A stretch of 64,000 bases of DNA from Actinomyces massiliensis 4401292 (GTDB taxonomy: Bacteria; Actinomycetota; Actinomycetes; Actinomycetales; Actinomycetaceae), in NCBI RefSeq assembly GCF_000269805.1, contig NZ_JH711481.1:783785-847784 (forward strand), in the 5' to 3' direction. Below, piece by piece: positions 3,001-60,309 of the stretch. Positions within the stretch are counted from its first letter, which is position 1. Each line of letters starts with the position of its first letter. The notes below the pieces were generated by a model, which saw nothing but the letters and a program-made list of their open reading frames with translations, did no database searches and was not told the DNA's origin. The position numbers and the translations under genes are program-made.

Positions 3001-3970
3001 CACCCGGTTGGTCGAGGCCGCCGGCGGGAGCCTCGCAGCGATGGAGGACCAGGCGGAGCAACTGGAGGTCCCCGAGGCCGACGGGGGCGATGAGCCCGAA
3101 GCGATGCCGTCCGAGGATGAGGCAACGTCGTCGGATCCGGGCGCCGTGGCCGCTGTCGTGACTGCCGTGGACTCTCCAGTACCCGATGCGCCCAGCGCGC
3201 CGGACGGTACGGCGGTCCTCGTCGCACCGAGTGCCCCGAGTGCGCCAAGTTCCCCGAGCGAAGCGGGCGCACCCGCTGCACCTGCCGCCCCGGTCGCGTC
3301 CAGCGCCTCGACTGCTCCGTCCACGCCGGACGGCTCCGCGCCCGCCACCCCGACGGCACCCGCGACTCCGACCGACTACCGGGAGTGGCGGCTTGAGGGG
3401 ACGCGTCCGCTGGACGTGCTCGACCGCGCTGAGAATGATCCGGAGGCCGAGGCCCGCGTCATCGAAGTGGCCCGGGCCATTTGCGACGTCGAGTCCCCAC
3501 TGACCCGGCACCGACTCATCGTCAAGCTCTGCCGCACCTTCAACCTGTCGCGAACAGCCAGGTCCCGGGAGGAGAGGGTACGCCGCGTCCTGGGGGAGTC
3601 GTTCGCCTACATCGACGAGCACGACTTCGTGTGGCGCACTTACGACGCCTCGTTGCTTCCGGTGTCCTATCGGCGCGGCGCCCTGGACCATGTGGACTCC
3701 ATCGAGGAGATCCACCCGCGCGAGCTGGTCGCGCTCATGGCCGATCTCCGGGCCAATAGCCCCGAGTGGCGGTCGCCCGACGATCTGTACCAGAAGGCAC
3801 TGCGGCGGCTCAGCTCCAAGAAGCGCAGGCTGGGCGCGCGCGGCATCCTGCCCGCCCTTGAGGCCGCCCTCAAGGAGGCCGAGCGCGAGGGGGCCGAGGG
3901 CGAGGGGGCCGAGGGCGAGGGCTGCGAGGGCGCTGGCAGCGCAGACGAGCAGGAGGCGCCGCCCGCCTGA
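2..3970 (+). CDS. DUF4011 / SF1 helicase / Vsr-like nuclease protein, 5' end outside window
   Basis: The reading frame is open from base 2, so the start lies upstream; about 1,322 residues are visible. Seen in order: a low-complexity Ala/Pro/Glu linker, the DUF4011 opening (WKRSLLDLSRRNPLI), Walker A GPPGTGKSQT, Walker B VIFDEASQI, GDPKQMPP, LTWHYRS and the late helicase motif VAITRARRQI. A restriction-like fold follows (HRNEIAERL...SSFEIDLVLG), then an Ala/Pro linker and a DUF3320-type tail. It is a close paralogue of the complete 1,793-residue protein immediately downstream. DUF4011-helicase-Vsr proteins are known as single-gene anti-phage factors (called Hhe in defence catalogues, from memory), so a nucleic-acid-cleaving defence role is inferred. 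No lesion is visible. Confidence 0.85.
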   Translation, partial: ASPAAPAGAELEPAPAAAELEPAPAAAEALPAPPAAVENWKRSLLDLSRRNPLISRTSRDTVKLWVPPDLIGRLEDFVNDRSLVTLRPDPYGAANRASVSSDDRAVLLTEQRTAYINLSGKECAQRLQTMAASARTILAETGANNLYLAIGTLAWRLDGVQVRSPLILIPVNLEQEGDTYGIVLDEAGASTPNHSLLTRFKADTGIDLVELREPVRDEHGIDVKATLQRVRRRLSRAGRCDVVERTVHLGLFGFSTYRMWQDLEENWPTITSNPLVGHLLEAPGAAPTAFPDPVDPTGPVDDLDEVVENLPLVADSDQARVVADAAAGRSLVVEGPPGTGKSQTVANLIFRALAQGRTVMFVAEKASALDVVARRLREEAGIGDLLLNLHDNGMKPAEVCEALRRALDLQAPDVGAAEVDELRGRLAQLRGRLGEYREGLHDPRDGASYYRARRELIEERDAESGDGATQAHPAESEQGELERARSAFEARARETGLDAFDAVTQSRLLEDYRTTLEQLRAALAPELLSSVLAHRDRVLREAGSRAEELRREVRRRRGSLNVRELIDSYWDLVVAITPCLLVSPDSAARFFPADRRYVDVVIFDEASQITVAGAVGAMGRGRSVVVVGDPKQMPPAAAPGTARGGGDLEGAGRSESGSILDRCLAGGVPSRRLTWHYRSRVESLIAFSNRHYYDGGLLTFPSPLTLSDRSDDGPDGYGVSLRRVDGTYYREKARAGRPGVRPSTNPVEARQVVEEVVRRFEAHPSVPSVGVITFNARQRDLIEELLRKELGSQRVDEALRVRDGLFVRNLENAQGEERDAILFSLTFSANERGDVPLSFGSLGHAGGERRLNVAITRARRQIVLFASFDPEDLHAERSAHQGVKDLRAYLEQARSGSAPRALPASRSAVDLHRNEIAERLRETGLEVSVGVGHSSFEIDLVLGASGRPGVAVLLDGPGWDRRGSTTDRDLLPIDVLRTMGWERVERVWMPEWVADPDAVVTRLVEAAGGSLAAMEDQAEQLEVPEADGGDEPEAMPSEDEATSSDPGAVAAVVTAVDSPVPDAPSAPDGTAVLVAPSAPSAPSSPSEAGAPAAPAAPVASSASTAPSTPDGSAPATPTAPATPTDYREWRLEGTRPLDVLDRAENDPEAEARVIEVARAICDVESPLTRHRLIVKLCRTFNLSRTARSREERVRRVLGESFAYIDEHDFVWRTYDASLLPVSYRRGALDHVDSIEEIHPRELVALMADLRANSPEWRSPDDLYQKALRRLSSKKRRLGARGILPALEAALKEAEREGAEGEGAEGEGCEGAGSADEQEAPPA

Positions 3971-3976
3971 AACGCC

Positions 3977-4030
3977 GAGATCGGTCGAGTTCCGCGTCGA
4001 GATCGGTCGCAGTCCGCGTCGAGATCGGTC
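3977..4030 (+). repeat. three GAGATCGGTC repeats, 22-bp period
   Basis: The 10-mer GAGATCGGTC occurs at 3977, 3999 and 4021, with CCGCGTC preceding the second and third units. The array starts 6 bp after the stop codon of the preceding helicase gene. The same three-unit array, in the same orientation relative to its gene, follows the helicase at 19822-22554. Confidence 0.85.
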
Positions 4031-4118
4031 CAAGCGCCGGACCCGGCCGCCAGCCCCGCGAACGGGCCATGCCCGAGCCCGCCCCTGAGGGCGCGATCCG
4101 AGCCGCCCGGCGCGTTGC

Positions 4119-4619
4119 CTACCTGTCCTGACGAACCTGGCGGTCGCCGAGCTCCCGTTCGAGGGTGATGGTGCACTTCGACGTGATCGCCATCCCCTCG
4201 CACTCGGTGACGCCCGGCAGAGCGCCGACGCTCAGATTGATCGTGACGTCCTGATCGGTCTCGGTGACCTCTGCGGAAACGCCGTCGCATTTGTCCGGGC
4301 CACTCCAGAAGACAACGTCCACAGTGGTGGGGGAGGACAGCGACCAGGAGCCCCAGGTCACGGGATGCGTGTGCGTCAGGTCGTCGCGAATCTCGAGCGT
4401 TTTGGCATTCGATGGGTCACTGAGACGGTCATCGGTTGTTGTCTCTTCGGGGCTGCTGGTGGAGTCCGTGGCCTCCGCCGTCTTCGTATTCGACTTTGCA
4501 GTCGACGGCTCAATGGGAGGCACCGCAGTAGGCTTACCCGAGCCGGGGCGGTAGCGGCAGCCGCTTGCCGCAAGAGCGGCTGCCAGGAATGTCGCTTTCA
4601 TGCTTGTGCGTCGTCTCAT
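4119..4619 (-). CDS. small secreted lipoprotein, unknown function
   Basis: This 166-residue protein has a basic N-terminus, a hydrophobic stretch and a lipobox ending AASGC, so it should be lipid-anchored outside the membrane. A Ser/Thr/Glu-rich linker (about residues 30-65) leads to a small beta-rich domain with paired cysteines (KCDG, VTEC, SKCTI) that may form disulfides. The ATG at 4619 has GGAAG about six bases upstream; an internal Met at 4601 is an alternative start. I do not recognise the domain. It lies alone, antisense between the two large helicase genes, and its 3' end faces the repeat array. Confidence 0.6.
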   Translation of the reverse strand: MRRRTSMKATFLAAALAASGCRYRPGSGKPTAVPPIEPSTAKSNTKTAEATDSTSSPEETTTDDRLSDPSNAKTLEIRDDLTHTHPVTWGSWSLSSPTTVDVVFWSGPDKCDGVSAEVTETDQDVTINLSVGALPGVTECEGMAITSKCTITLERELGDRQVRQDR

Positions 4620-48176: not shown

Positions 48177-48930
48177 GGCTGAGGAGACGAGATTCCGGTT
48201 GACCTGCCCTGCTGATGCTCTGGTGATCGCCGGGCTCGTCCCCATGAGCACGGTCGACTGGCCCGACCACCTGACCGCGACCGTCTTCCTGCAGGGCTGC
48301 CCCTGGAACTGCTTCTACTGCCACAACCAGGCCCTCATCCCCGCCCGCACGCCCGGCCAGGTGGCGTGGGAGGAGGTGCGCGCCCTGCTGCGCCGCCGGA
48401 GGGGACTGCTCGACGGCGTCGTCCTCACCGGCGGTGAGGCGCTGCGCCAGGACGCCCTGGCCGACGCCGCCCGCGAGGTCATCGACATGGGCTTCCAGGT
48501 GGGGCTGCACACGGCTGGGCCCTACCCGCGGCGGCTGTGGGACATGATCGCGTCCGGGCTAGTCGACTGGGTAGGGCTGGACATCAAGGCGCTGCCCGAG
48601 CACTACGGGCAGGTGGTCGGCCGGGCGAACGCGGCCGCGAAGGCCTGGGAGAGTCTGGAGGTGCTCATCGAGGCAGCCGGCCGCGGCGGGCCCGACTTCG
48701 AGGTGCGCACCACCGTGGTGCCCGGGGACGTGACGGCCGACGACGCCGTCGAGGTGGCCCGCCGGGTGCACGCGGCGGGGGCCCGGGTCTACGCCCTCCA
48801 GCAGGCCCGCTCCGAGGGGACGAGCGGGGAGTTCGACGTCGTGGCGCCCGGCTGGGACGGGATGTGCGAACGCATGGCTGAGCGCATCGAGGCTCTGGGC
48901 TGGGACCGTTTCACCTACCGCCCGGCGTAG
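48169..48930 (+). CDS. nrdG: anaerobic ribonucleotide reductase-activating radical SAM protein
   Basis: This 253-residue protein carries GCPWNCFYCHN, with the CxxxCxxC 4Fe-4S ligands C44, C48 and C51, then DGVVLTGGEALRQ (SAM-binding GGE) and DWVGLDIKALPEHY. It uses S-adenosylmethionine to make the glycyl radical on NrdD. It is slightly longer than short NrdGs and belongs to the longer, PflA-like type common in actinobacteria. ATG 48169 overlaps the antitoxin stop by eight bases. The interval 48931-49145 has no supported gene. Confidence 0.92.
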   Translation: MPEAEETRFRLTCPADALVIAGLVPMSTVDWPDHLTATVFLQGCPWNCFYCHNQALIPARTPGQVAWEEVRALLRRRRGLLDGVVLTGGEALRQDALADAAREVIDMGFQVGLHTAGPYPRRLWDMIASGLVDWVGLDIKALPEHYGQVVGRANAAAKAWESLEVLIEAAGRGGPDFEVRTTVVPGDVTADDAVEVARRVHAAGARVYALQQARSEGTSGEFDVVAPGWDGMCERMAERIEALGWDRFTYRPA

Positions 48931-49145
48931 GCTGGGGAGAATGATGACCTGGCCGAGCGTGACTGCCCCGCGTCGCTGGGTGACATCCAGAGGCTCACAC
49001 GATGAGCCCGCTGATCGGGCCCGCGACAATCGCCGGTGTGGAGATCCCGGCTACGGCTACGCTGGCGCAGGTGCGCGGGGACTGGCGGTGTCGGGGCGCA
49101 GGTACGGGGCGGAGTTCCCGCAGGGCGATCGTCGAGAGTTCAGTA

Positions 49146-49799
49146 ATGGTAGATAAGGACTTGCTCTTCGGTGATCTGTGCCCTCGAGGGGTGTCGTGCG
49201 CCGAGTCCCGGGGCGACGACGACTTCCCATCCGATCCGCGATTGACGCTTCTGCCCGGAGAAGCTGCTCGGGTTGCGCGCTCGTCCCCTACGAGAGCCGC
49301 GGAGTTCGCGACAGGGCGTCGACTGGCGCATGATGCGATGGAGCAGATTGGTTTTTCTGGGCCTGTACTCTCCGGGGCTCACGGAGAGCCGTGCTGGCCC
49401 GAGGGTGTGATCGGCTCTATTACTCACTGTCCGGGTCTGCGTGCCGCAGCCGTTGGGGTGAGGTCGCAGGTGAGCGCGCTGGGTATCGATGCGGAGCCCG
49501 ATCGAGCGCTCAGTGCCGACGTCGCTCGGGCACTGGTCATGCCCGCTGATCGCTTGCCTGATGATGCGCATGCACTCGTGGCGCTTTTGTGTGCCAAGGA
49601 GGCGGCTGCAAAGGCCTTCGTCTCGATGGGGGCTCCCACGCGGGACTTCCGTCTCTCTACGGTGCGATTCTTTGACAAAGATGGATTCATGGTCCTTGGT
49701 CGGGACGGGCATCCCGCCATGAACGGGAAGTGGCGGCGCAGTGACGGACTCGTGCTCGCGGTGGTCGCCGTCACGTGCTGTGATCGTCCGAGGTTCTGA
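49146..49799 (+). CDS. EntD/Sfp-type 4'-phosphopantetheinyl transferase
   Basis: This 217-residue protein shows the PPTase signatures: FATGRRLAHDAM, IGSITHC, ALGIDAEPDRALS (metal-binding Asp and Glu) and LLCAKEAAAKAF (the W/F-x-x-KEA motif). It transfers the phosphopantetheine arm of CoA to carrier proteins; the ACP at 53290 is the likely client. ATG 49146 gives the proper family length. Its 3' end overlaps the convergent TetR gene by 29 bp. It is the left border of the PKS cluster. Confidence 0.88.
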   Translation: MVDKDLLFGDLCPRGVSCAESRGDDDFPSDPRLTLLPGEAARVARSSPTRAAEFATGRRLAHDAMEQIGFSGPVLSGAHGEPCWPEGVIGSITHCPGLRAAAVGVRSQVSALGIDAEPDRALSADVARALVMPADRLPDDAHALVALLCAKEAAAKAFVSMGAPTRDFRLSTVRFFDKDGFMVLGRDGHPAMNGKWRRSDGLVLAVVAVTCCDRPRF

Positions 49800-50382
49800 C
49801 ACCTCGTTCAATCAGGTCCAGGAGAGCGTCATAGTTGACCTGAGTGACCCGGTCCGAGGACGTGGATTCCGCTGCTCCGTGGAGGAACTCCACTGAGAAC
49901 GCGCCTTGGACGCAGGCCCAGATCGCATTGGCGAGGGAGCGGGCATCGACATCGATGACGGCGCCGGCGGCTTGACCGTATCGGACGATCTCAATCAGCT
50001 GGGTGAAGGCGTTGCGGGCTTCAGGTCCTGGTTGGGTGGTCCACATGAACTGGTAGCAGCGCGGGTTGGCCTGCATGAGCTCGTGAACAATCGTGCCAGC
50101 CTTCCTGAGTCGGGCAAGGGGATCGTACTCGGAGATATCGCGCAGGGCACGCGTCATGATGGCGAAGCGTTCCTCGACGACGGCATGGAGCAGTCCTTGC
50201 TTGTCGCCGAAGTGGTTATAGACGCTCATGGGGGCGACCTGAGCGCGGGCGGCGACGGCGCGGATAGTGACAGCTTGCGGGCCGTTCTCCTCCAGCAGCT
50301 CCGTCGTGGCGTGAATCACTTTCGATGCCAATAGCTGGGTTGAGGTGCGCTTGTTGGGGTGTTTGCGCTGATCGGAGGCCAT
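49771..50382 (-). CDS. TetR-family regulator, left member of a paralogous pair
   Basis: This 203-residue protein has the HTH GPQAVTIRAVAARAQVAPMSVYNHFGDKQGLLHAV (about residues 30-65) and an all-alpha ligand domain. It aligns throughout with the TetR at 58967-59569 (shared VTIRAVAA, YNHFGDKQG, ARLRKAG/TRLRQAG, DAFTQLIxIVxYGQ). It is divergent from the MFS exporter; two AAC-N3-GTT sites lie between them. It probably represses the exporter and PKS genes. ATG 50382 is a reasonable start; 50397 is an alternative. Confidence 0.88.
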   Translation of the reverse strand: MASDQRKHPNKRTSTQLLASKVIHATTELLEENGPQAVTIRAVAARAQVAPMSVYNHFGDKQGLLHAVVEERFAIMTRALRDISEYDPLARLRKAGTIVHELMQANPRCYQFMWTTQPGPEARNAFTQLIEIVRYGQAAGAVIDVDARSLANAIWACVQGAFSVEFLHGAAESTSSDRVTQVNYDALLDLIERGVRTSDDHST

Positions 50383-50453
50383 GTGTCCAACTTTCATCTC
50401 GGTATCTGGCGGTCGGTGGGTTGGGGTTGTGGAGCGAGTGTCCACTAGTGTAG

Positions 50454-50483
50454 AACAGTGTTACAACCTACTGGAACATCGTT
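50454..50483 (+). promoter_or_regulatory. twin operator sites in the tetR-MFS divergent region
   Basis: AACagtGTT (50454-50462) and AACatcGTT (50475-50483) are 21 bp apart, each within a longer imperfect palindrome (TGTAGAACAGTGTTACA; GGAACATCGTTCTA). They lie just downstream of a possible TTGTGG/TAGAAC promoter for the exporter. Confidence 0.5.
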
Positions 50484-50502
50484 CTACGAATCGAGGAACC
50501 TC

Positions 50503-52116
50503 ATGACTTCAGTTGTTCCACCGCCGCCTACTGCCCTCCAGTCGACGGGCATGCCTCAGGCGCCGCTTGTGTCGCAGGCGCCCGTTAGGCGCGCGGACGC
50601 ACCGAGTCGAGGGCGTGGCCTTCGTGCAGCAGCTCTGGCGGCGCTGTGCCTGGCCGAACTGCTGGTCGTCATCGACAACACCATCGTCAATGTCGCCATC
50701 CCTACCTTCGCTCGTGATCTCAATGCATCAACCACTGGGCTGCAGTGGATCGTTGATGCGTACACCTTGGCCTTCGCCTGCCTGCTCCTGCCTGCAGGCC
50801 ACCTGGGTGACCGCATTGGGCGTCGGCGTGTTCTGGTCATCGGGCTGGCCGCGTTCGGTGTGGTGAGTGGTGCAACGGCGCTGTGCACCACCTTGGATGC
50901 GGTGACAACGTGCCGTGCGCTGCTTGGCGTATGCGCTGCACTCGTCTATCCCGCCACGCTCTCACTCATCATGACTACCTTTGAAGGTTCTTCACGAAAG
51001 GGCCTGGCAGTCGGACTATGGGCGGCAACTTCCGGGCTTGGGATCGCCCTGGGGCCAATCCTTGGCGGTCTTCTGTTGGAGCACTTTTCATGGGAGTCAA
51101 TCTTCTGGGTTAATGTGCCCTTGGCTCTCATCACTGTTCCTGCCGTGCTTGTGGCGGTGCCCGAGTCCCGTTCCAGCGAAAAGGCCCGGTTTGATGTAGT
51201 GGGCGCTATTCTGTCCGCCATCGGAGTAGGGGCGCTGGTGTGGGGAATCATCGAGGGTCCTCATCGTGGCTGGACCTCAGGATCTGTGACAACGGCCTTC
51301 ATTGTTGGCGCCATCTGTGTGTCTGCACTTGTGGCTTGGGAACTGTATTGGCCGCACCCCCTGATTGATGTCCGTCTATTCTTCCGCAGGGAGTTCTCCG
51401 CAGGTGCCGTGTCGATCGCCGCAGCATTTTTCGCCCTCTTTGGATTCATCTTCATCATCACGCAGTACTTCCAGGACGTGCGGGGTTACAGCGCTCTGAT
51501 GGCCGGCGTGGCGACCTTGCCGTTTGCTATCGTGATGGCAGTCGTTTCGCCGATCGCTTCAGTCCTTTCACGTCGGCTGGGGCCGGGATGGGTCGTCGGA
51601 GTCGGTCTGGGAATTATGGGCCTGGGATTCTGGCGAGTTACAGTCCTGGAGGCTGATTCTGCGTACTGGCAGATGATCGTTCCTGCGATGGTGATCATGG
51701 CTGCTGGTCTTGCGCTAGTCCAAGCGCCTGCGACGAGTGCAATCATGGGCGTGGTACGTAAGGATCAAGTCGGGGCTGCTTCCGCCATGAATGACACCAC
51801 CCGCGAAATCGGGGGAACTCTTGGAGTGGCTGTTCTGGGATCTATTGTCGCCTCTCAGTTCTCAGATTCCCTGAATTCGGCGGTGTCCGGGTTGATGCCG
51901 CAACAGGCTCTCGATCAGGCAGACAACTCGATCACTGCTGCGATGACAGTAGCGAAGTACATGCCGGAAACTGTTCAAGGCCTCTTTAAAGAGGCTGCTG
52001 TCAACGCCTTTATGGATACGGTTCATCAGGCAGGCTGGGTAGTGGCTTGTGTGGCGTGGGCTGGGGCGCTCATTGCAGTAATTGCCCTGCCCAGGGGGCG
52101 TCAGAATAGCGTCTGA
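50503..52116 (+). CDS. DHA2-family MFS exporter of the PKS cluster
   Basis: This 537-residue protein has about 14 membrane helices, after a Pro-rich N-terminus. GHLGDRIGRRRVLVIG is motif A, and GPILGGLLLEHFSWESIFWVNVP is the antiporter motif C region of EmrB/QacA-type exporters. It should pump out the cluster's product, also giving self-resistance. ATG 50503 follows GAGGAA. The gene reads toward the acyltransferase 120 bp downstream and is likely co-transcribed. Confidence 0.88.
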   Translation: MTSVVPPPPTALQSTGMPQAPLVSQAPVRRADAPSRGRGLRAAALAALCLAELLVVIDNTIVNVAIPTFARDLNASTTGLQWIVDAYTLAFACLLLPAGHLGDRIGRRRVLVIGLAAFGVVSGATALCTTLDAVTTCRALLGVCAALVYPATLSLIMTTFEGSSRKGLAVGLWAATSGLGIALGPILGGLLLEHFSWESIFWVNVPLALITVPAVLVAVPESRSSEKARFDVVGAILSAIGVGALVWGIIEGPHRGWTSGSVTTAFIVGAICVSALVAWELYWPHPLIDVRLFFRREFSAGAVSIAAAFFALFGFIFIITQYFQDVRGYSALMAGVATLPFAIVMAVVSPIASVLSRRLGPGWVVGVGLGIMGLGFWRVTVLEADSAYWQMIVPAMVIMAAGLALVQAPATSAIMGVVRKDQVGAASAMNDTTREIGGTLGVAVLGSIVASQFSDSLNSAVSGLMPQQALDQADNSITAAMTVAKYMPETVQGLFKEAAVNAFMDTVHQAGWVVACVAWAGALIAVIALPRGRQNSV

Positions 52117-52236
52117 AAGGAGATCGAAAAACATACTTGTGTTCATGGGCGAATATTCCTCGACTCGCCCAGTTGAGCCGCGCCAGGTCCGGCGTGAGTG
52201 AATAGAAGAACAGTACTACGCGCGAAAGGGCGTATC

Positions 52237-53274
52237 ATGGAAGCCAACCTCCAGGCATATGAAAAAGACATGATCAGGGAATTAAGGCAGGCGGGAGTGC
52301 TTGTTAGTGACACGCAATCCGTTGTCGGCGGGCTTGGATTCCTCTTCCCGGGTCATGGGACTCATTCATCTACAATGTTTGACACCTATCTGAAGGGCTC
52401 GTCCTCCGCGGGAAAATTGATTGAAATGGCCGATGAGGTCGTTAATGAGCGCTGCGGTTATCGGCTCACCGACGCAGTGCGCGGCAATGCACGTTTTCCA
52501 ATCGAGCATCCCTGTGTGACTCAGCCGGCGATCTTCACCGCCGCTTTAGGTGGGGCTCTGATGGCGGAGGAGTACTCGCTGCATCCCAGTCTTCTCGTGG
52601 GGCACAGTCTTGGTGAGTATGCAGCGTTGGTATGTTCGGGTGTTCTGACTGCGGAGACGGGCCTTCGAATGGTCATTGATCGCGCTGAATGCGTGGCAGA
52701 TATCCCTCAAGATCGCCGTGGAGCCATGTTGGCAGTGCTTCTTGATGATGATTCGCAAATTGCCGTCGTGCGACGTGCTGTTGCCGCGCACGCGTCTCGT
52801 GGGGCGATTTCGGTGGGAGTGATCAACAGTCCCCGACAGGTCGTCGTATCCGGAGAGCACGAGTTGGTCATCTCCTGCCGTGAGGAATTGAAGCGCTCTG
52901 GTGTATCTTCAACACTGCTTCCTATCGGTGTTGGGTTCCATAGCGCGGTTCTTGCCGAGGCGGTCGCTCCTTTTGAGGAACGCCTTAAGCAGTACTCCTG
53001 GACTGCTCCGATGACGCCGGTCGTCTCATCGGTATTCGGAGGATATGTCGATTCTGATTCACTTGAGGCGCTTCCGAGTCTTCTTGCCGCTCAGCTGATC
53101 ACTCAATTTGACTTCCGTAACAGTCTCAAGGTCGCTCAGGATGCCGGGGTCGACATGTATCTTGACTGTGGCCCGCGTTCTGTGCTGAGTAAACTTGTGT
53201 CTTCTCAAATGAATCTTGGTGATGTGTCCGTTATGCATCTCGACTACGGGCCTGCTCATGCTGATCGCACGTGA
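52237..53274 (+). CDS. stand-alone malonyl-CoA:ACP acyltransferase (AT)
   Basis: This 345-residue protein opens with a 30-residue helical lead, then the AT fold: GFLFPGHGTHSS, CVTQPAIFTAALGGAL, GHSLGEYAAL with nucleophile S124, RMVIDRAECV (carboxylate-binding Arg), GVINSPRQVVVSG and GVGFHSAVL (catalytic His). The intact Arg suggests malonyl-type units. AAAGGG precedes ATG 52237. In PUFA synthases this domain is followed by ACPs and a KR in one polypeptide. Here a TGA at 53272-53274 ends it while the same frame continues, with no stop, into the ACP-KR-DH protein. Confidence 0.9.
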   Translation: MEANLQAYEKDMIRELRQAGVLVSDTQSVVGGLGFLFPGHGTHSSTMFDTYLKGSSSAGKLIEMADEVVNERCGYRLTDAVRGNARFPIEHPCVTQPAIFTAALGGALMAEEYSLHPSLLVGHSLGEYAALVCSGVLTAETGLRMVIDRAECVADIPQDRRGAMLAVLLDDDSQIAVVRRAVAAHASRGAISVGVINSPRQVVVSGEHELVISCREELKRSGVSSTLLPIGVGFHSAVLAEAVAPFEERLKQYSWTAPMTPVVSSVFGGYVDSDSLEALPSLLAAQLITQFDFRNSLKVAQDAGVDMYLDCGPRSVLSKLVSSQMNLGDVSVMHLDYGPAHADRT

Positions 53275-53289
53275 GATGTTCTCACAGCA

Positions 53290-56200
53290 TTGTCCTGGGT
53301 TCGCTCTGGAAGTGTGGCGCCCACAGACGTCGAGGTTGTTGATGCTCAGGGTGAGGTGTTTGAGGCGCCGGGGTCTGGGGTCGTTGAGGAGACTCTGGAT
53401 GGTGCCGGTGTTGACAAGGATGCGGTGTGTACCGCTTTGCGTGAGGCTTTTGCTGAGCGTACGGGTTATCCGCTTGAGCTGATTGAGGCCGATCTGGATC
53501 TGGAGGCGGATCTGGGGATTGACTCGGTCAAGCGTGTTGAGGTTGTGGGGCATGTCGGTGAGGTGCTCGGTGTGGACGTCAAGGAGCTGGACTTCAGTCA
53601 GGCCTTGAGCGTGTCTGACATCGCTGAGGTGCTGGTCGGCTCCCAGAACGTCGAGGTTGTTGACGCTCAGCGGACGGAAGCCGGAGCATCCGACGCCCAA
53701 CTGGACTCAGTCACTATCGGGTATGAAGACGAATCCTCCCGAACTGCACATCGATACGTTCCTCAGTCGGTTCGGATCAAGTCTCTTGGAGCTGAGCGTA
53801 CAATTCTCCCCGGTGACGCTATCCTAATAACGGCGGCAGATCAGTCTGTCAATGATGCCGTGAGAAAAGTTCTTGAAGAACTGAGCTTGACAGTCATCGA
53901 AATTCCCGGGGACGCGTCGGAAGCGACTATCAAACGCCTGACTTCCTCGGATCGTCTTCGCCGAGTGTCTACCGTCGTGGATCTATCCGTCCTGCGTCCG
54001 CACGCCGACGTACTGTCCAAGGGTGACGCCTGGTGGCAAGATGTTGAAGGCCAGTACACGACCGTATTCAGCGTTGCTCAAGCAACCTATGAGACCCTGC
54101 AATCATATGGAGAACATGCGTCATGGATCGCTGTAACGTCCAGTGGTGGTATGTCAGGGATGGACTTGCGAACCGTCGGCGATCCTATCGGCGGACTGAC
54201 CGCAGGATTTGTCAAGACCTTGGCTCTCGAACTGAGGCAGATGCATACTCGAATTGTCGACTTTGACGTAGTTGAGCCTAGCTCATTGGCTGGTGCTCTC
54301 AGAACCGAGTTGACTCACGAGGCTGAGAATGAAGAAATCGAGATAGGCTATATCGAAGGAGATCGGTACACGGTACGCGTTCTTCCTGTGCCAGTGTCGA
54401 GTTCTGACCGCGCAGTACGGCAGTCCCTTTCGACAGACTCTTGCGTTGTGATGTCTGGTGGTTCCCGTGGCATCGTCCGTGAGTGTGCTCTGGCGTTGGC
54501 AGAGCAGCGAAACATTCCAGTTGTGCTCCTTGGACGCTCAGACCCCGACGATCCGGAGATGAAACCATGGTTGGCCTACAGTGACGAGGACTGGGCAAAT
54601 GCCCGTGCTGAAGTGATGCGTCAGGGGCGAACTCGGCGTCCGGAGGCAAGCGTCGCCGACCTCTCCGACGAATACAGGAAAATCACTTACACTCGTCAGC
54701 TTGTCACCAATCTGGCCGACATTGACTCTCGCACTGACAAGATTCACTACCTTGTATGCGACGTGTCTGATCCAGATCAGGTTGACAAGGCGATGGCACA
54801 AGTTCGTAGCAGGTTCGGAAAGATCAGCGCCATTGTGCACGGAGCCGGCCTTGAGTCATTCGGTGCCATACCTCGTAAGTCTCTCAAAAAGACCGCCAAG
54901 GCTATTGCTGTGAAAGCCCGAGGTTTTCAGAACCTCCTGAGGTCCACAGCTGAGGATGATCTAAGCGCCTTTATATCCTTCGGATCTATTTCTGGGCGAT
55001 TTGGTATGGACGGCCAGTCGGATTACACTGCCGGCGCCTCGCTACTGGCGCAGATGGCACACATCATGTCGCGGTCGCAGTCGCAAAATCCTCGCACCAT
55101 CCCGTTCATTACCATGGAATGGACCGCTTGGGACGAGGTAGGAATGGCGACTAATCCTGAAGTCGTCTCAGTTCAGGCCAACGAGCGTGGTATGACATAC
55201 ATGTCTGTCGCCGATGGAGTTCGCCACTTTGTCGATGAAATAGAGCTTGGGACGGCGAATCCAGAGGTGCTCTACTTCGGGGAGCTTGGAAAAAATCGTC
55301 CTGCCGCTCAGGTGCCGGAACTGACTAAGAGTGGCACGCAACTGAGTGAGTTGATGGATAATTCTGGAATGATTGTCAATCGAAGTTCCTTCCCCATGGT
55401 TGACTATGCTGAGACTACTGAGTCGGGGCTTCAAACGACTCGAGTCCTGTGGACTGAGCGTGATCGCTATCTCCCTGATCACCTGGTTAAAGGAACCGCA
55501 ACCTTTCCTGGGGTACTGCATTTCGAGACCCAGATTGAAACTGCGCTCCTGCTTGCTGGTGACCAATATGCCGGAATTGAGCTCGAGCAACTTGATCTCC
55601 AGACATTCCTTAAATGCAGAGATCGGGATCATGTGACAATCCATGTTGACGCTAAACGTGTGGATGAAAAACGGATCGACACGGAATTGACTTCTGTGTT
55701 CCGTACCCCGAACGGAGATGTGCTCGATCCAAGAAGACCGCAGTCGAGCGCTACATTCCGTCTCCTTGATGAGCCGGTATCAGCTAAAGAGCCCGTGCTT
55801 GACATTGAGCATATCTTCGACGATGTGATCGGTGAGTTTGACATTGATAAGTACTATGCTCTGACTGATAGCTTCATATCATTCGGGCCAACGTTCCGCT
55901 ACCTGAATAGCGCCTTTCTTGTCGATGAGAACATAGTGGTTGGGGAACTTCAGATTCCGGGGATACCAGGACTGTTCTCTGATGTCGCCGATCCGAACTT
56001 CCGGTGCAACCCGATTCTCGTTGACAATGTTGGAAGGTTCGCCCTGATGCGGCAGCTGTGGCGCAATGGCCAGTATGTTGTTCCGACGCAAATGAAGAGT
56101 GCGCGAATGTATCGCTGCCCTCAGGTGCGCGAGCGTTGCTTCGGAAAGATGACTGTTCTGGAAGACTATGAGGATGGTTTTGACATGCGGCTCGATATCG

Positions 56201-56313
56201 TTGACGAAAACGGCTACCTGCTCTGCACTGGCGAGCATATTCGTCTGACTGCGATCGGCAGTATGCCTGAACCTGCGAATATTCTTAGCAACACTATTTC
56301 TTCAAGGATCTGA
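53290..56313 (+). CDS. ACP-KR-DH polyketide synthase subunit
   Basis: The protein has about 1,007 residues. One acyl carrier domain has LEADLGIDSVKRVEV, the motif typical of PUFA-synthase ACPs (Ser about 79). A structural SDR half (about 130-370) precedes an active ketoreductase: VVMSGGSRGIVRECALAL for NADPH, VKARGFQNLL, FGSISGRFGMDGQSDYTAGA with Ser and Tyr. The C-terminal 320 residues form a double-hotdog dehydratase: RYLPDHLVKGTATFPGV (HxxxGxxxxP) and PILVDNVGR (Asp). No ER or thioesterase is present. Start is uncertain: TTG 53290 has no ribosome site; GTG 53314 has only a weak one. Confidence 0.88.
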   Translation: MSWVRSGSVAPTDVEVVDAQGEVFEAPGSGVVEETLDGAGVDKDAVCTALREAFAERTGYPLELIEADLDLEADLGIDSVKRVEVVGHVGEVLGVDVKELDFSQALSVSDIAEVLVGSQNVEVVDAQRTEAGASDAQLDSVTIGYEDESSRTAHRYVPQSVRIKSLGAERTILPGDAILITAADQSVNDAVRKVLEELSLTVIEIPGDASEATIKRLTSSDRLRRVSTVVDLSVLRPHADVLSKGDAWWQDVEGQYTTVFSVAQATYETLQSYGEHASWIAVTSSGGMSGMDLRTVGDPIGGLTAGFVKTLALELRQMHTRIVDFDVVEPSSLAGALRTELTHEAENEEIEIGYIEGDRYTVRVLPVPVSSSDRAVRQSLSTDSCVVMSGGSRGIVRECALALAEQRNIPVVLLGRSDPDDPEMKPWLAYSDEDWANARAEVMRQGRTRRPEASVADLSDEYRKITYTRQLVTNLADIDSRTDKIHYLVCDVSDPDQVDKAMAQVRSRFGKISAIVHGAGLESFGAIPRKSLKKTAKAIAVKARGFQNLLRSTAEDDLSAFISFGSISGRFGMDGQSDYTAGASLLAQMAHIMSRSQSQNPRTIPFITMEWTAWDEVGMATNPEVVSVQANERGMTYMSVADGVRHFVDEIELGTANPEVLYFGELGKNRPAAQVPELTKSGTQLSELMDNSGMIVNRSSFPMVDYAETTESGLQTTRVLWTERDRYLPDHLVKGTATFPGVLHFETQIETALLLAGDQYAGIELEQLDLQTFLKCRDRDHVTIHVDAKRVDEKRIDTELTSVFRTPNGDVLDPRRPQSSATFRLLDEPVSAKEPVLDIEHIFDDVIGEFDIDKYYALTDSFISFGPTFRYLNSAFLVDENIVVGELQIPGIPGLFSDVADPNFRCNPILVDNVGRFALMRQLWRNGQYVVPTQMKSARMYRCPQVRERCFGKMTVLEDYEDGFDMRLDIVDENGYLLCTGEHIRLTAIGSMPEPANILSNTISSRI
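53327..53670 (+). repeat. in-frame direct repeats flanking the single ACP
   Basis: A 23-bp sequence starting ACGTCGAGGTTGTTGA occurs at 53327-53349 and 53648-53670 with one mismatch, 321 bp (107 codons) apart. This is the expected signature of a tandem-ACP array with one remaining or assembled unit. Confidence 0.8.
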
Positions 56314-56315
56314 TT

Positions 56316-58856
56316 ATGTCTATGTCGTACTCTTCTCTTGCCGTTATTGGATTTGGTTGTAATCTCCCTGGTGGTTCTAATGGTGCGGAGTCGTACTGGG
56401 ACACCATTATTCAGGGGCGTAGTGGCATTAAAAGCTCGCGCGATCAGCGATGGAACTACAGTGGGTATCTAGATGCCGACCGCACTGCACCAGAGCGCAC
56501 GTATTGTGGACTTGGGGGGCTGCTAGACGACTTTACTGTACGTCGCGGTAGGTGGTGCTCCTACACAGCGGTTGAAAAACTCAATCGCACGCAAATGCTC
56601 ATTCTAGATACAGCGATTCAGGCACTCGGCATGGCAGGGATGGCGCCGGGAGACAGCAGGCTGAAGGAAATTTCTCTCATTGTGGGAAACATGCTTGCCG
56701 ATGAGGCGTACGATCATGAGGTTCTTGGCGAGATCGCCAGGCTGGCTCTCCAGGAGGCTGTTCCGGATCCTGGAGAACGTCGGCCCTACGAGGCCAGCCT
56801 CGATCATTCACTTCCGGTAGTTGATGATAATGCCGATTCTGCCAGAGTGGTCCCTTCTGCTCTTGCGCATCCGGTCGCCACGTTACTTGGTTTGCAAGAT
56901 AGGGCTGTTGTTGTCGATGGAGCTTGTGCCTCCGGTTTGCTGGTCGTTGACGCGGCGGCTCGTTATCTACATGATCGTACGTCTCCTTTTGTTCTTGCCG
57001 TTGGGGCAATGGCGAACATGGCGATCACAGGAAACGTCAGCTTCTCCAAAATTGGTGGTCTCTCGGAAACTGACTCGACACCCTTGGATGAGAACGCTTC
57101 GGGGCTTGTTCCCGGTGAGGGTGCTGGAGCTGTGCTGCTGTGTCCGTTGGCCTATGCCCTAGAGCATGGGATGACGGTATATGGAGTGATCCGTGGTAGT
57201 GCGACTCGTACTGATGGTCGTGGTAGGGCAATATATGCCCCTAACATGCGAGGCCAGGTGTCGGCCATGAGGCAGGCAATGGCAGGCGGAAACTTCGTTG
57301 CTGATGATATCGATCATATCGAGACGCATGCAACTGGAACAAAGGCGGGAGATACAGAGGAGCTGCTTTCTGTAAAGGAAATCGCTTCCGGTCGTTGCTC
57401 AGGTCCAGTATCTTTAGGGTCGGTTAAGTCGCTTACGGGGCATGGTTTTCCGGCTGCAGGCATAGCCAATCTCGTTAAGGTTCTGCTATGCATGCAGCAT
57501 GAGCGCTTCGCGCCTGTTCATGGCGTGAAGACACCTCACAAGCTCATCAGGGAGAATCCCGACATTTTTGCTCTTCATCGAGCGCCTGCAACGTGGCCTG
57601 TTAATGACTCCCGGCCTCGTAGAGCGCTGGTCAATGCATTCGGTTTTGGTGGAGTGAACTCGTCGGTCTGCATTGAGCAGTTTGATAAACAGTACCACGC
57701 CAATCTCGTAAGAGTGGAGTCTGACACTGTGCTGCCGTCCGGGAAAGGCCGAGCCGTAGCGATTGTCGCTACCGGGCGCTGTCAGGCGACTGCCATGGAC
57801 AATGGTACACTTCTTGATGACGACATTGACTTCGACTGGCGCCATTTTAAGGTTCCTCCGGTCCTGGTTCCGCATATGGATGGCGCACAGCGTCTAGCTC
57901 TGGAGGCAACAAGGCGCTTGCTTGCTGAAAGGCAGATTGATCCGGATCGTTGTGGGATAGTGCTAGGGCAGCCTGCGGGTCTTGAGGTTCTTGCTCGTCG
58001 GTCGTTTAAGATCAGACTTCCTGAAATCGTTTCAGCGCTGCGTTCCACTCAAGGTGTGGACAGTCGAGACATCGAGGCCGTAGTCTCTGGTGTTGAAAAG
58101 ATTGCCTCGTCTATTCCTGCAACAATAGAGGCGTCTCTGCCGGGGTATATGGACAACATTGTTGCCGGCCGTCTTGCTAATGTCTTCGATGTTCGTGGGC
58201 CATCAATGGTTTTGGATGCCGGAGAAGCATCGTTTGCGGCGTCTGTTGACCTCGCAGCTCGCTATCTTGATGCAGGGGAGTGCGATCAGATGATCGTGGG
58301 TTCCGCTTTTGCGTCGAGGTCCCGTGTGCATCGAGCTGCAGGCTTGGCGTCTCAAGGACGTAACGCTTCCGTCATGCTCGTGCGCTCTCTTGAGTGGGCG
58401 CGGAAGCATCCAGAGGAGGTTTTGGCTGTTGTTGAGGTGAAGACTGTTTCAGAGGTCGAACATGACGGAGGATTCAGTAACTCGGCGAATGCTGGTTGGG
58501 TGCTTGAGACGATGGCCACTTCTCCAAACGGCTCCGGTTGGAGTGAGCAAGCGACTGTTGCTCAGTCAGGTCGGAAGTTTGGCTACAGCGTGGCCGTCTA
58601 TGGCACAGTCCTCTCATATGACGAGAAGTCGGATGGCGAATCGGCATCAATGGCGACGAGGTTGCACTTGGCGGCAGCCGACTCTCCTGAAGAAGGCTTG
58701 CGTCTGCTTTCCCGTCCCGCAGTGGCGAACGCAAACAAGGAGAATGGGCTTGGTCGTTTTCGGATGGCCGTCCTGGACTCCGATATGGAGCTGGCCGAGG
58801 TGATCTGGAGGTTCCTCGGTCAATGCGGTCGAGAAGAGGAACTCGTCCGCAAGTAG
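56316..58856 (+). CDS. ketosynthase / chain-length-factor (KS-CLF) didomain subunit
   Basis: This 846-residue protein starts 2 bp after the previous stop, with AAGGA upstream. KS half: VDGACASGL with C204, HIETHATGTKAGD (H338) and VKSLTGHGFPAAG (K371, H376), a complete Cys-His-His set. The second half (about 470-790) is a second ketosynthase fold in which the Cys site reads VLDAGEASFAASV (E637), and the histidines are lost: a chain-length-factor-like partner. KS-CLF is the build of PfaC-type PUFA synthases and type II PKSs. It condenses malonyl units on the ACP of the preceding subunit. Confidence 0.9.
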   Translation: MSMSYSSLAVIGFGCNLPGGSNGAESYWDTIIQGRSGIKSSRDQRWNYSGYLDADRTAPERTYCGLGGLLDDFTVRRGRWCSYTAVEKLNRTQMLILDTAIQALGMAGMAPGDSRLKEISLIVGNMLADEAYDHEVLGEIARLALQEAVPDPGERRPYEASLDHSLPVVDDNADSARVVPSALAHPVATLLGLQDRAVVVDGACASGLLVVDAAARYLHDRTSPFVLAVGAMANMAITGNVSFSKIGGLSETDSTPLDENASGLVPGEGAGAVLLCPLAYALEHGMTVYGVIRGSATRTDGRGRAIYAPNMRGQVSAMRQAMAGGNFVADDIDHIETHATGTKAGDTEELLSVKEIASGRCSGPVSLGSVKSLTGHGFPAAGIANLVKVLLCMQHERFAPVHGVKTPHKLIRENPDIFALHRAPATWPVNDSRPRRALVNAFGFGGVNSSVCIEQFDKQYHANLVRVESDTVLPSGKGRAVAIVATGRCQATAMDNGTLLDDDIDFDWRHFKVPPVLVPHMDGAQRLALEATRRLLAERQIDPDRCGIVLGQPAGLEVLARRSFKIRLPEIVSALRSTQGVDSRDIEAVVSGVEKIASSIPATIEASLPGYMDNIVAGRLANVFDVRGPSMVLDAGEASFAASVDLAARYLDAGECDQMIVGSAFASRSRVHRAAGLASQGRNASVMLVRSLEWARKHPEEVLAVVEVKTVSEVEHDGGFSNSANAGWVLETMATSPNGSGWSEQATVAQSGRKFGYSVAVYGTVLSYDEKSDGESASMATRLHLAAADSPEEGLRLLSRPAVANANKENGLGRFRMAVLDSDMELAEVIWRFLGQCGREEELVRK

Positions 58857-58875
58857 ATCGAGTTTCGATCTACTC

Positions 58876-58914
58876 GTGCGGGGCTCTCGATCGCCTTAGT
58901 CGGGAGCCCCGCAC
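58876..58914 (+). terminator. intrinsic terminator of the PKS operon
   Basis: Perfect 11-bp arms (GTGCGGGGCTC and complement) with a 17-nt loop, followed at once by ACCCCGTTTTTGGGG, which adds a T-run and a second short hairpin. Position 20 bp after the KS-CLF stop. Confidence 0.8.
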
Positions 58915-58966
58915 ACCCCGTTTTTGGGGTGGATGGTTTTCTATATCTTGCCATGAGGCGGTGACA

Positions 58967-59569
58967 TCAACTTCGGCTTATTCCGCGAATGACGACGTCT
59001 AGAAGAATATCGTAGGCATCGTCGTCGAGTGTTGTTACGTGATCGGAAGAGCCTCGCGCAGCGGATTGGTGCTGCCATTCAATGAATATCGCACCTTGAA
59101 CGCTGGCCCATATTGCTTCAGCTAGTTTTCTTGGGTTATCTTCGATGAAAACACCTGCCACTTGTCCGTACTGGACGATGTGGATGAGTTGTGTGAAGGC
59201 ATCGTGAGCGGCAGGTCCCGGGCGAGTGACCCACATCAGTTCATAGGCTTGAGGGGTGGCCAGCATGAGTTGGCGAACGACAATGCCTGCTTGACGGAGG
59301 CGAGTTTTAGGGTCTTGTTCGGCGATTTCGCGCAATCGACTGACCATGATTGAGAAGTGTTGCTCGGCGATAGCATCGAGGATGCCTTGCTTGTCCCCGA
59401 AGTGGTTGTAGATGCTGGCCGGTGACACGTGTGCCTGCGCTGCCACAGCGCGGATGGTTACCGCCTGCACGCCTTTGTTCTCCAGGAGGTCCGTGGCCGC
59501 CCGAACGACGGTGGGCACTAGTTTTTTTGAGGATGTGCGAGTGGTGCGGCTTGTCGGCTGTGAAGCCAT
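58967..59569 (-). CDS. TetR-family regulator, right member of the paralogous pair
   Basis: This 200-residue paralogue of the regulator at 49771-50382 has HTH GVQAVTIRAVAAQAHVSPASIYNHFGDKQGILDAI and a ligand domain of equal length. AAAGGGGG precedes ATG 59569. Convergent with the PKS operon, it forms the right border of the cluster. Two repressors with near-identical recognition helices may share operators or sense two ligands, for example precursor and product. The recognition helices differ only at VAPMSV/VSPASI. Confidence 0.87.
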   Translation of the reverse strand: MASQPTSRTTRTSSKKLVPTVVRAATDLLENKGVQAVTIRAVAAQAHVSPASIYNHFGDKQGILDAIAEQHFSIMVSRLREIAEQDPKTRLRQAGIVVRQLMLATPQAYELMWVTRPGPAAHDAFTQLIHIVQYGQVAGVFIEDNPRKLAEAIWASVQGAIFIEWQHQSAARGSSDHVTTLDDDAYDILLDVVIRGISRS

Positions 59570-59796
59570 GGGTCCCCCTTTTGTGAGAACGACCTATGGT
59601 GAGGTGGGCGAATTGTCATGTTGCTCATGATACTCGGCGTCGAAGTCCAGCGTTGTTGGGCCTTTTGAGGCGCGTAACACTGCGGTCGTCGGGGATGGGC
59701 GCTGTCAGCCGTTAGCCCGAGGCTCGTAGATCGAGGAGGCCGCTATGGGGAGCGGTGTCCATGGTTGGTGTTGGGGCGCACTCCTAGCCTCGGGGC

Positions 59797-60186
59797 ATGA
59801 GCTACGACCTCCTGATCTTCGAGCCGGACTCTGCGACCGACGATGACTTCCCCCGGTGGTGGGAGCAGGTCGTTGCCCAGTGGGACGAGCCGCAGGGCTT
59901 CAGTGCCATCGACGGCTCCACCCCGGCGATCAGGTCCATCTACCGCGACCTCATCCGCATCTTCCCTCCGTTCAACGGTCCCGACGCGCTGAATGACGCA
60001 GAGCTCGAGGATCGGGAGGCCAAGGGGTTGCCAGTCGCCGACTACACCATCGGCGCGGACTACATCTACATCAGCGTCGGTTGGTCGGATGCGAATGCGC
60101 TGGTCAAGATCGTCGGCCAGATGGCCTGGACGCAGCGGCTCGCGGTCGCCTACGTCAGCGAGGACAGCTCGATCTTCCGGCCGTAG
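59797..60186 (+). CDS. hypothetical protein, MSYDLLIFEP family
   Basis: This 129-residue acidic, cytoplasmic protein has MSYDLLIFEPDSATDDDFPRWWEQ and a later YTIGADYIYISVGWSDANALV segment. Proteins with this opening are common beside polymorphic-toxin immunity genes in actinobacteria, but I know no proven function. It stands alone after the PKS cluster with no ribosome site stronger than average. Confidence 0.6.
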   Translation: MSYDLLIFEPDSATDDDFPRWWEQVVAQWDEPQGFSAIDGSTPAIRSIYRDLIRIFPPFNGPDALNDAELEDREAKGLPVADYTIGADYIYISVGWSDANALVKIVGQMAWTQRLAVAYVSEDSSIFRP

Positions 60187-60309
60187 AAGAGGGGTCTGAC
60201 ACTGAGCCTCGAGCGTTGATGCTATCGCGGCCTCGTGTGGCTGTACTCTCTCCACAGTTCGTCCGGAGCGAGTGGGGATGCGTGGTTGGGTGCGATCGAC
60301 CCATTGGGC

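Follow-up and report, generated by a model that had tools for sequence, protein, structure and literature searches.

In a 64,000-nt stretch of the Actinomyces massiliensis 4401292 genome (handle G000; hereafter the window, by whose positions all coordinates are given), we identified an acquired 10.8-kb cassette for what is probably an iterative synthase relying on one ketosynthase (KS), which would build a conjugated polyene chain for export. Seven open reading frames (ORFs) lie at 49146-59569 and encode a 4'-phosphopantetheinyl transferase (PPTase), a TetR regulator, a DHA2-type exporter of the major facilitator superfamily (MFS), an acyltransferase (AT), a protein with acyl carrier protein (ACP), ketoreductase (KR) and dehydratase (DH) domains, a protein joining the KS to a chain length factor (CLF), and a second TetR. 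A first-pass annotation of the same DNA had named these seven genes, and the ORFs and their Pfam domains confirm them; likewise supported is the reading of an iterative synthase built on KS-CLF and served by a dedicated PPTase, an exporter and two TetR regulators. Its limits, 49146..59569, hold for the genes, but empty-site comparison makes the insert itself wider:

48932..59737: the insert of 10,806 bp, with all seven genes (edges from BLAST comparison with eight Actinomyces genomes)
49146..49799, + strand: Sfp-type PPTase (Pfam 4PPT_N, 5.5e-20; start 49146 chosen, ORF open from 49002)
49771..50382, - strand: TetR regulator 1, divergent from the exporter (Pfam TetR_N, 1.7e-13; start 50382 chosen because it is like that of TetR 2, ORF open to 50445)
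50503..52116, + strand: DHA2/EmrB-type MFS exporter (ORF open from 50458; NCBIfam TIGR00711, 289.8 bits against a cut-off of 230.2)
52198..53274, + strand: AT domain, severed from the remainder by a stop (Pfam Acyl_transf_1, 9.8e-28)
53272..53274, + strand: in-frame TGA stop, where the A. oris homologue reads through
53290..56313, + strand: ACP, structural KR half, KR and PKS-type DH (Pfam PP-binding, KR, PKS_DH_N, PS-DH; PKS, polyketide synthase)
56316..58856, + strand: KS-CLF didomain (Pfam KS N and C; KS residues intact, second half of the CLF degenerate)
58967..59569, - strand: TetR regulator 2 (Pfam TetR_N, 9.7e-14)

The cluster is real and bounded, and its insertion lies at one site, preceded by a radical-SAM gene and followed by a nitroreductase gene, which are present in 48 and 13 of 49 Actinomyces genomes, respectively. 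The site was examined in eight of the 11 nitroreductase-bearing genomes besides G000 and G010. In five of them (G027, G001, G011, G065, G026) it is empty, the insert edges being 2-52 bp apart by BLAST and the flanking matches falling at window positions 48930/48931 and 59738-59746, and three (G069, G007, G003) hold other DNA of 2.1-2.6 kb there. The radical-SAM and nitroreductase genes are less than 2.2 kb apart in G029, G031 and G059, as judged from match coordinates alone. The low GC content seen in the first pass was borne out: the insert has 56.4% GC vs 68.0% for the rest of the window, and 382 overlapping windows of the same size to its left range from 64.8 to 70.2%. Horizontal acquisition of the cassette is supported. 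As to the vehicle, a search for transposon ends found no repeat of at least 8 bp common to both ends of the insert, for which reason transposon carriage through terminal repeats was set aside, and no integrase family occurs among the domain matches of the seven insert proteins. Phage or viral carriage was also set aside, since the ACP-KR-DH protein has no match in phages and the KS-CLF protein none in viral contigs; the KS alignment gave 14 matches to viral contigs, at 22-30% identity.

The site 3' of the radical-SAM gene (48931-59738) is an insertion hotspot, since loci from three other Actinomyces (L135, L136, L137) carry 2.1-2.6 kb of different DNA. In L137, a segment matching window positions 59735-60214 is present twice at the insertion site (3268-3639 and 3883-4362), one copy being partial. 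The radical-SAM gene recurs about 23 kb from its first copy (G000:C1:855433-856206), at 77% identity and with an internal TAG stop.

The cluster of Actinomyces oris CCUG 34288 (L001) is the nearest named record, from the only other Actinomyces genome found with the cluster, and it changes how the synthase is divided. The AT, ACP-KR-DH and KS-CLF had been described as separate polypeptides. In A. oris, AT-ACP-ACP-ACP-KR-DH is a single 1585-aa ORF with no stop at that point, and in the window the AT and ACP-KR-DH ORFs share one frame, divided only by TGA 53272-53274, with the next ORF starting 15 bases on. The AT is identical to that of A. oris at 1074 of 1074 nt. Identity covers 51418-53271 and continues as far as 53432, broken by nothing but the stop codon (the alignment is uncertain past about 53430 owing to the ACP repeats); over the rest of the cluster, divergence is 1-10% per 200 bp. 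We read this pattern as a block of about 2 kb (51418-53432) recently exchanged between the two lineages, in which the stop would have arisen afterwards. Since the stop is the sole difference in this block, the split between AT and ACP-KR-DH is, on this comparison, very young or an error, and not a partition maintained by selection. A. oris also has three tandem ACP units of 321 bp, near-identical with a 98% match, and the window has one, a difference that could be genuine or could reflect collapse in the assembly. The native form, as we infer it, consists of two proteins, AT-ACP3-KR-DH and KS-CLF.

The stop leaves a real possibility, which we rate somewhat short of even, that the cluster of the window strain is decaying: the AT would be severed from the synthase and no product made, with the A. 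oris cluster still working. The youth of the stop and the presence of one ACP rather than three fit such decay. On the other side, both halves keep whole domains with the cut lying between them, the downstream genes are open, and either the stop or the ACP count could be an assembly or sequencing error. A functional split, with a separate AT serving the ACP in trans and a restart of translation past the stop, is more doubtful. The AT does end after its domain with the next ORF close by in the same frame, and sister synthases carry the AT or AT-ACP on a protein other than the KR-DH; but the one other homologue in Actinomyces is fused, selection could not yet be visible on so recent a change, and no convincing ribosome site was seen at the in-frame restarts TTG 53290 and GTG 53314. 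For the exported polyene proposed above, the stop counts as an adverse point in this strain, where it could inactivate the pathway.

The catalytic machinery otherwise appears intact. All 18 aligned proteins keep the KS residues C204, H338, K371 and H376, so that the loss of active-site residues in homologues that was looked for did not appear, and the CLF site lacks Cys throughout these rows. KR Tyr579 is invariant in five aligned KR-DH proteins, as are His731 and Asp912, presumably the catalytic pair of the DH, which we assigned by motif. The intact active sites of the first-pass annotation are upheld on these alignments. Comparison with A. oris gave dN/dS values of 0.10 for the MFS, 0.11 for KR-DH and 0.21 for KS-CLF, within a range of 0.10-0.21 that includes both TetRs, and these ratios show most genes to be under purifying selection.

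The type of DH and the content of the insert bear on the product. With its PKS_DH_N and PS-DH matches, the DH belongs to the PKS type, like that of the C-1027 plasmid PKS, and no FabA-like DH was matched by Pfam in the AT, ACP-KR-DH and KS-CLF proteins at E 0.001. Two PfaC-like controls each show PF07977 (FabA-like) in three stretches, together with weaker PKS-type DH matches. Neither a PfaD-type enoyl reductase (ER) nor a thioesterase (TE) occurs among the Pfam matches of the seven insert proteins, to which the search was confined, in agreement with what had been stated earlier; a Pfam SDR (short-chain dehydrogenase/reductase) model named enoyl-ACP reductase does match, but on the KR. With a KR and PKS-type DH and no FabA-like domain, PfaD-type ER or TE seen, a conjugated polyene is therefore expected rather than a polyunsaturated fatty acid (PUFA). 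The conjugated polyenoyl product would follow from this domain chemistry, for which RerA/RerB of Rhodococcus erythropolis is the closest experimentally tested precedent considered, and the polyene-type chemistry suggested before is plausible on the same content.

The proposed pathway would run as follows. The PPTase would convert the ACPs to the holo form and the AT would load malonyl units, a specificity suggested by the GFHS motif. The single KS, paired with a CLF that would limit chain length, would condense repeatedly, with the KR and then the PKS-type DH acting after every round; for want of an ER, the polyenoyl chain growing on the ACP would be conjugated throughout. Release would proceed without a dedicated TE, by hydrolysis or an unlinked enzyme. 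From gene position, the DHA2 pump would export the product, and both TetRs may repress the exporter and the synthase, with repression lifted once the product or a precursor is sensed. The window strain would either make the AT as a separate protein or have an impaired pathway. Also against this scheme, no TE was seen among the matches just described, and one KS may be insufficient if a housekeeping KS is recruited.

Phylogenies were used to place the synthase. From 69 extracted KS rows, a quick tree of 64 rows was made by omitting five (duplicates, a fragment and a CLF), and a careful tree of 49 rows by omitting 22 (the same five, a pair of long rows and 15 that were close or surplus) and adding two plasmid records. 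Clades are named by architecture except for named records, and the rows include no sequence from a proven PUFA producer and no labelled hglE/hglC, aryl-polyene, Type R or RerA KS. The KSs of the window, A. oris and G788, a draft genome from another family of the same order, form one clade (100/100), which we call the Actinomyces type. It joins six proteins that have a single KS-CLF and are not of the PfaC type, with support of 99/94 in the 49-row tree; in the 64-row tree the same join reaches 93 SH-aLRT, below the star limit. These single-KS-CLF relatives come from actinomycetes, Paraburkholderia and Azospirillum. The PfaC-like, PfaA-like and enediyne-type (PKSE) KSs form clades separate from the window KS, and the PKSE clade includes the PKS of the C-1027 plasmid SGLP1, which we take to be SgcE. 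The KS of a cyanobacterial PKS (L129) falls beside the PKSE clade, and the window KS is apart from three FabF rows (100/100, 49-row tree). Thus, the Actinomyces KS lies outside the PfaA-like, PfaC-like and PKSE clades as sampled here, and the earlier proposal to check the KS against PfaA/PfaC and PKSE returned a separate clade. In a KR tree of 38 rows with a midpoint root, from which the PKSE KRs are absent through the length filter, the Actinomyces KR stands among the single-KS-CLF KRs (95/89) and apart from PfaA-like KRs. The two trees show the KS and KR lineages to agree. In a tree of 18 KS-CLF rows the three KS-CLF groups are separate; being unrooted, it gives no order among them.

Several points weigh against the proposed reading. 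The trees contain only Actinomycetota and plasmid records. Grouping the Actinomyces KS with PfaC is 7 log units worse and barely rejected by the approximately unbiased (AU) test (p-AU 0.046), and grouping the six single-KS-CLF rows with PfaC, also 7 log units worse, is not rejected (p-AU 0.052). By path length, L046 rows of other groups come closest to the window KS once its own clade is set aside, ahead of the single-KS-CLF rows, and a CLF-only tree splits the Actinomyces type, weakly (75/62). In NCBIfam, where the best 25 matches were taken for two of the seven proteins, ACP-KR-DH scores highest with the PfaA model, at 2.2e-49 and 167 bits, far under its cut-off of 1010.

That match, together with the fold of the KS-CLF and the tandem ACPs of A. 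oris, is what speaks for a true PUFA-type synthase making membrane lipid, with further parts elsewhere in the genome. In an AlphaFold2 model of the KS-CLF (mean pLDDT 77), most residues beyond about 710 are poorly modelled, and the final 135 or so, the stretch expected to hold the second half of the CLF, are also poorly aligned. The best Foldseek match of this model in the PDB is 6riw, the KS-CLF of PfaC (E 4.9e-48; next 4.8e-37), and a sequence search of the PDB places 6riw second, after a Brevibacillus PKS with two KS domains; the model of ACP-KR-DH was poor (mean pLDDT 54) and was not used. Such a synthase is nevertheless very unlikely, since the insert has no FabA-like DH, vs both PfaC-like controls having it, the KS falls outside the PfaA-like and PfaC-like clades, and no stretch of the genome exceeds the cut-off of the PfaA model TIGR02813: eight stretches match, six being cluster genes and two lying in a 441-aa KS and a 3246-aa ORF. 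The PUFA-synthase likeness of the first-pass annotation thus holds for the KS-CLF fold and the tandem ACPs of A. oris but not for the dehydratase type or the KS clade. An enediyne-type PKSE making the polyene precursor of a larger scaffold is highly improbable: the PKS-type DH after the KR, as in the C-1027 plasmid PKS, and the polyene logic would suit it, but grouping the Actinomyces KS with PKSE is 54 log units worse and rejected (p-AU 0.003), and the insert holds only the seven genes.

A pattern scan with KS-CLF over 84,980 species genomes, which detects close relatives only and may omit the window's own record, returned one relative, A. oris. Full-length ACP-KR-DH matches occur in two of 49 Actinomyces genomes, with partial matches only in nine more; in the phylum sample, 22 of 396 genomes reach 1e-15, the best besides the window scoring 191 bits. 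KS-CLF matches at E 1e-42 or better are found in 2 of 213 family genomes and 7 of 396 order genomes (above 180 bits only in G000, G010 and G788), and a three-row KS-CLF profile gives E <1e-60 in 60 of 394 class genomes (above 300 bits only in G000). These samples overlap, and relatives may have been missed because two candidates per genome were scored in the phylum, order and class samples (four in the family). G788, presumably a metagenome-assembled genome, is 75% complete in 510 contigs. Its KS is 45% and its KR-DH 32% identical to those of the window. On the 7-kb contig concerned, KR-DH extends past one edge and is followed by a PPTase-like gene (Pfam ACPS, 21 bits, below the cut-off of 25), KS-CLF and, truncated at the opposite end, a CPBP protease-like gene.

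The sister lineage comprises loci L050/L127, L105/L123, L106/L124 and L115/L125 from the same class, L066 on a plasmid of Paraburkholderia ginsengisoli and L068 on plasmid p4 of Azospirillum argentinense. Each stretch examined (L123, L124, L125, L127, L066, L068) has one KS-CLF, in the following arrangements, where a slash separates polypeptides:

L123: AT-ACP2 / SDR-KS-CLF / KR-DH
L125: AT-ACP / SDR-KS-CLF / KR-DH
L127 and L066: AT-ACP(2) / KS-CLF-KR
L124: KS-CLF-KR-DH, with AT-ACP not seen on the contig
L068: AT-KS-CLF / KR-DH / ACP3-SDR

Some of these loci have P450, MFS, TetR, second KR, SDR or desaturase neighbours. Two Streptomyces plasmid loci from a protein search, whose KSs are outside the tree, also keep AT-ACP apart (L138, L139), L138 with two KS-CLF ORFs. 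The ACP-KR-DH ORFs at contig edges in L047 and L048 were rejected as relatives, their KRs grouping with a Nonomuraea KS-AT-ACP-KR synthase. Another Actinomyces, G003, has at L063 a 2397-aa KS-AT-ACP-KR ORF followed by a 1451-aa KS-AT ORF, and the first KS groups with PfaA-like KSs, apart from the window KS.

Of the regulatory features, the twin TetRs share 55% identity over 190 residues. Two inverted repeats were found in the insert:

50450..50487, no strand: imperfect inverted repeat, candidate operator (16-nt arms, 81% complementary)
58876..58914, no strand: inverted repeat and possible terminator, lying where the KS-CLF and TetR 2 genes converge (15-nt arms, 93% complementary)

A search for a shared TetR operator gave a single common 9-mer, within chance expectation, and promoter and terminator scans showed no excess over shuffles (for terminators, five sites vs a mean of 8.9 in shuffles).

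Tentatively, the Actinomyces type and its sister lineage could constitute an unrecognised class of single-KS-CLF iterative synthases of separate descent from Pfa and PKSE, of which the Actinomyces cassette would be the smallest form seen, giving oral bacteria an exported conjugated polyene. The comparison points to a branch of iterative polyketide and fatty-acid synthases in which a CLF accompanies one condensing site; such a branch would offer a simple setting for asking what determines chain length and the geometry of the polyene. The cassette also offers a testable small-molecule locus in Actinomyces, and the natural fused, three-ACP and stop-split, one-ACP forms could be paired for studies of AT and ACP dosage.

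In the open literature at PMC, we recognised no paper on the cluster or the single-KS-CLF lineage among the matches listed; the sister lineage may be described elsewhere. One oral survey, in the text available, counts eight polyketide clusters for the Actinomyces genomes that it covers, with or without the present one among them, and one Actinomyces cluster in MIBiG at its date (PMC8549736). The word PUFA is absent from the main texts, as available, of two oral cluster surveys (PMC8549736, PMC6469967), and the word Actinomyces from the available text of PMC13291983.

Against known systems, the layout is unusual in being unlike PfaABCD and PKSE, as first thought, but it is not isolated, since other synthases also separate AT-ACP from KS-CLF. 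The closest is A. oris, with the same seven genes at the same site and 95-97% DNA identity in two main BLAST pieces, differing in its fused AT and three ACPs; synteny in other Actinomyces was accordingly found in A. oris only, in that fused form. The single-KS-CLF lineage shares the KS and KR clades with the Actinomyces type and, in L066, L123, L125 and L127, keeps AT-ACP on a protein other than the KS, but it differs in placing the KR on the KS polypeptide (L066, L124, L127) or in fusing the AT (L068) or an SDR (L123, L125) to the KS. Pfa synthases resemble the Actinomyces KS-CLF in fold (6riw) and have tandem ACPs as in A. oris, but besides the difference in KS clade, the insert has neither the FabA-like DH nor the PfaD-type ER, and its single KS is on the KS-CLF protein, with no PfaA carrying KS-MAT-ACPn-KR. 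In PKSE, KS-AT-ACP-KR-DH is one polypeptide, whereas the Actinomyces KS is on a separate one, and the type II aryl polyene systems have discrete FabF-like KS and CLF proteins, which in Actinomyces are one polypeptide. In the available portion of Shulse and Allen (PMC3098273), the PfaA homologue's KS is the main basis for defining types A-T, and none as described there has AT-ACP3-KR-DH with a lone KS-CLF. Their Type R, compared by description only, shares one KS, a CLF, several ACPs, a KR and a PPTase, but is one polypeptide, KS-MAT-CLF-ACP(3-6)-KR, with DH unlisted. RerA/RerB of Rhodococcus erythropolis PR4, as outlined in the accessible part of PMC11563203, differs in having the KS on the same polypeptide, a CLF unmentioned and a TE present, but shares AT, ACP2, KR, DH, PPTase and conjugated polyenes; there, a KS-AT-ACP2-KR-DH synthase with a PPTase/TE protein yields conjugated polyenes to C22 in E. 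coli.

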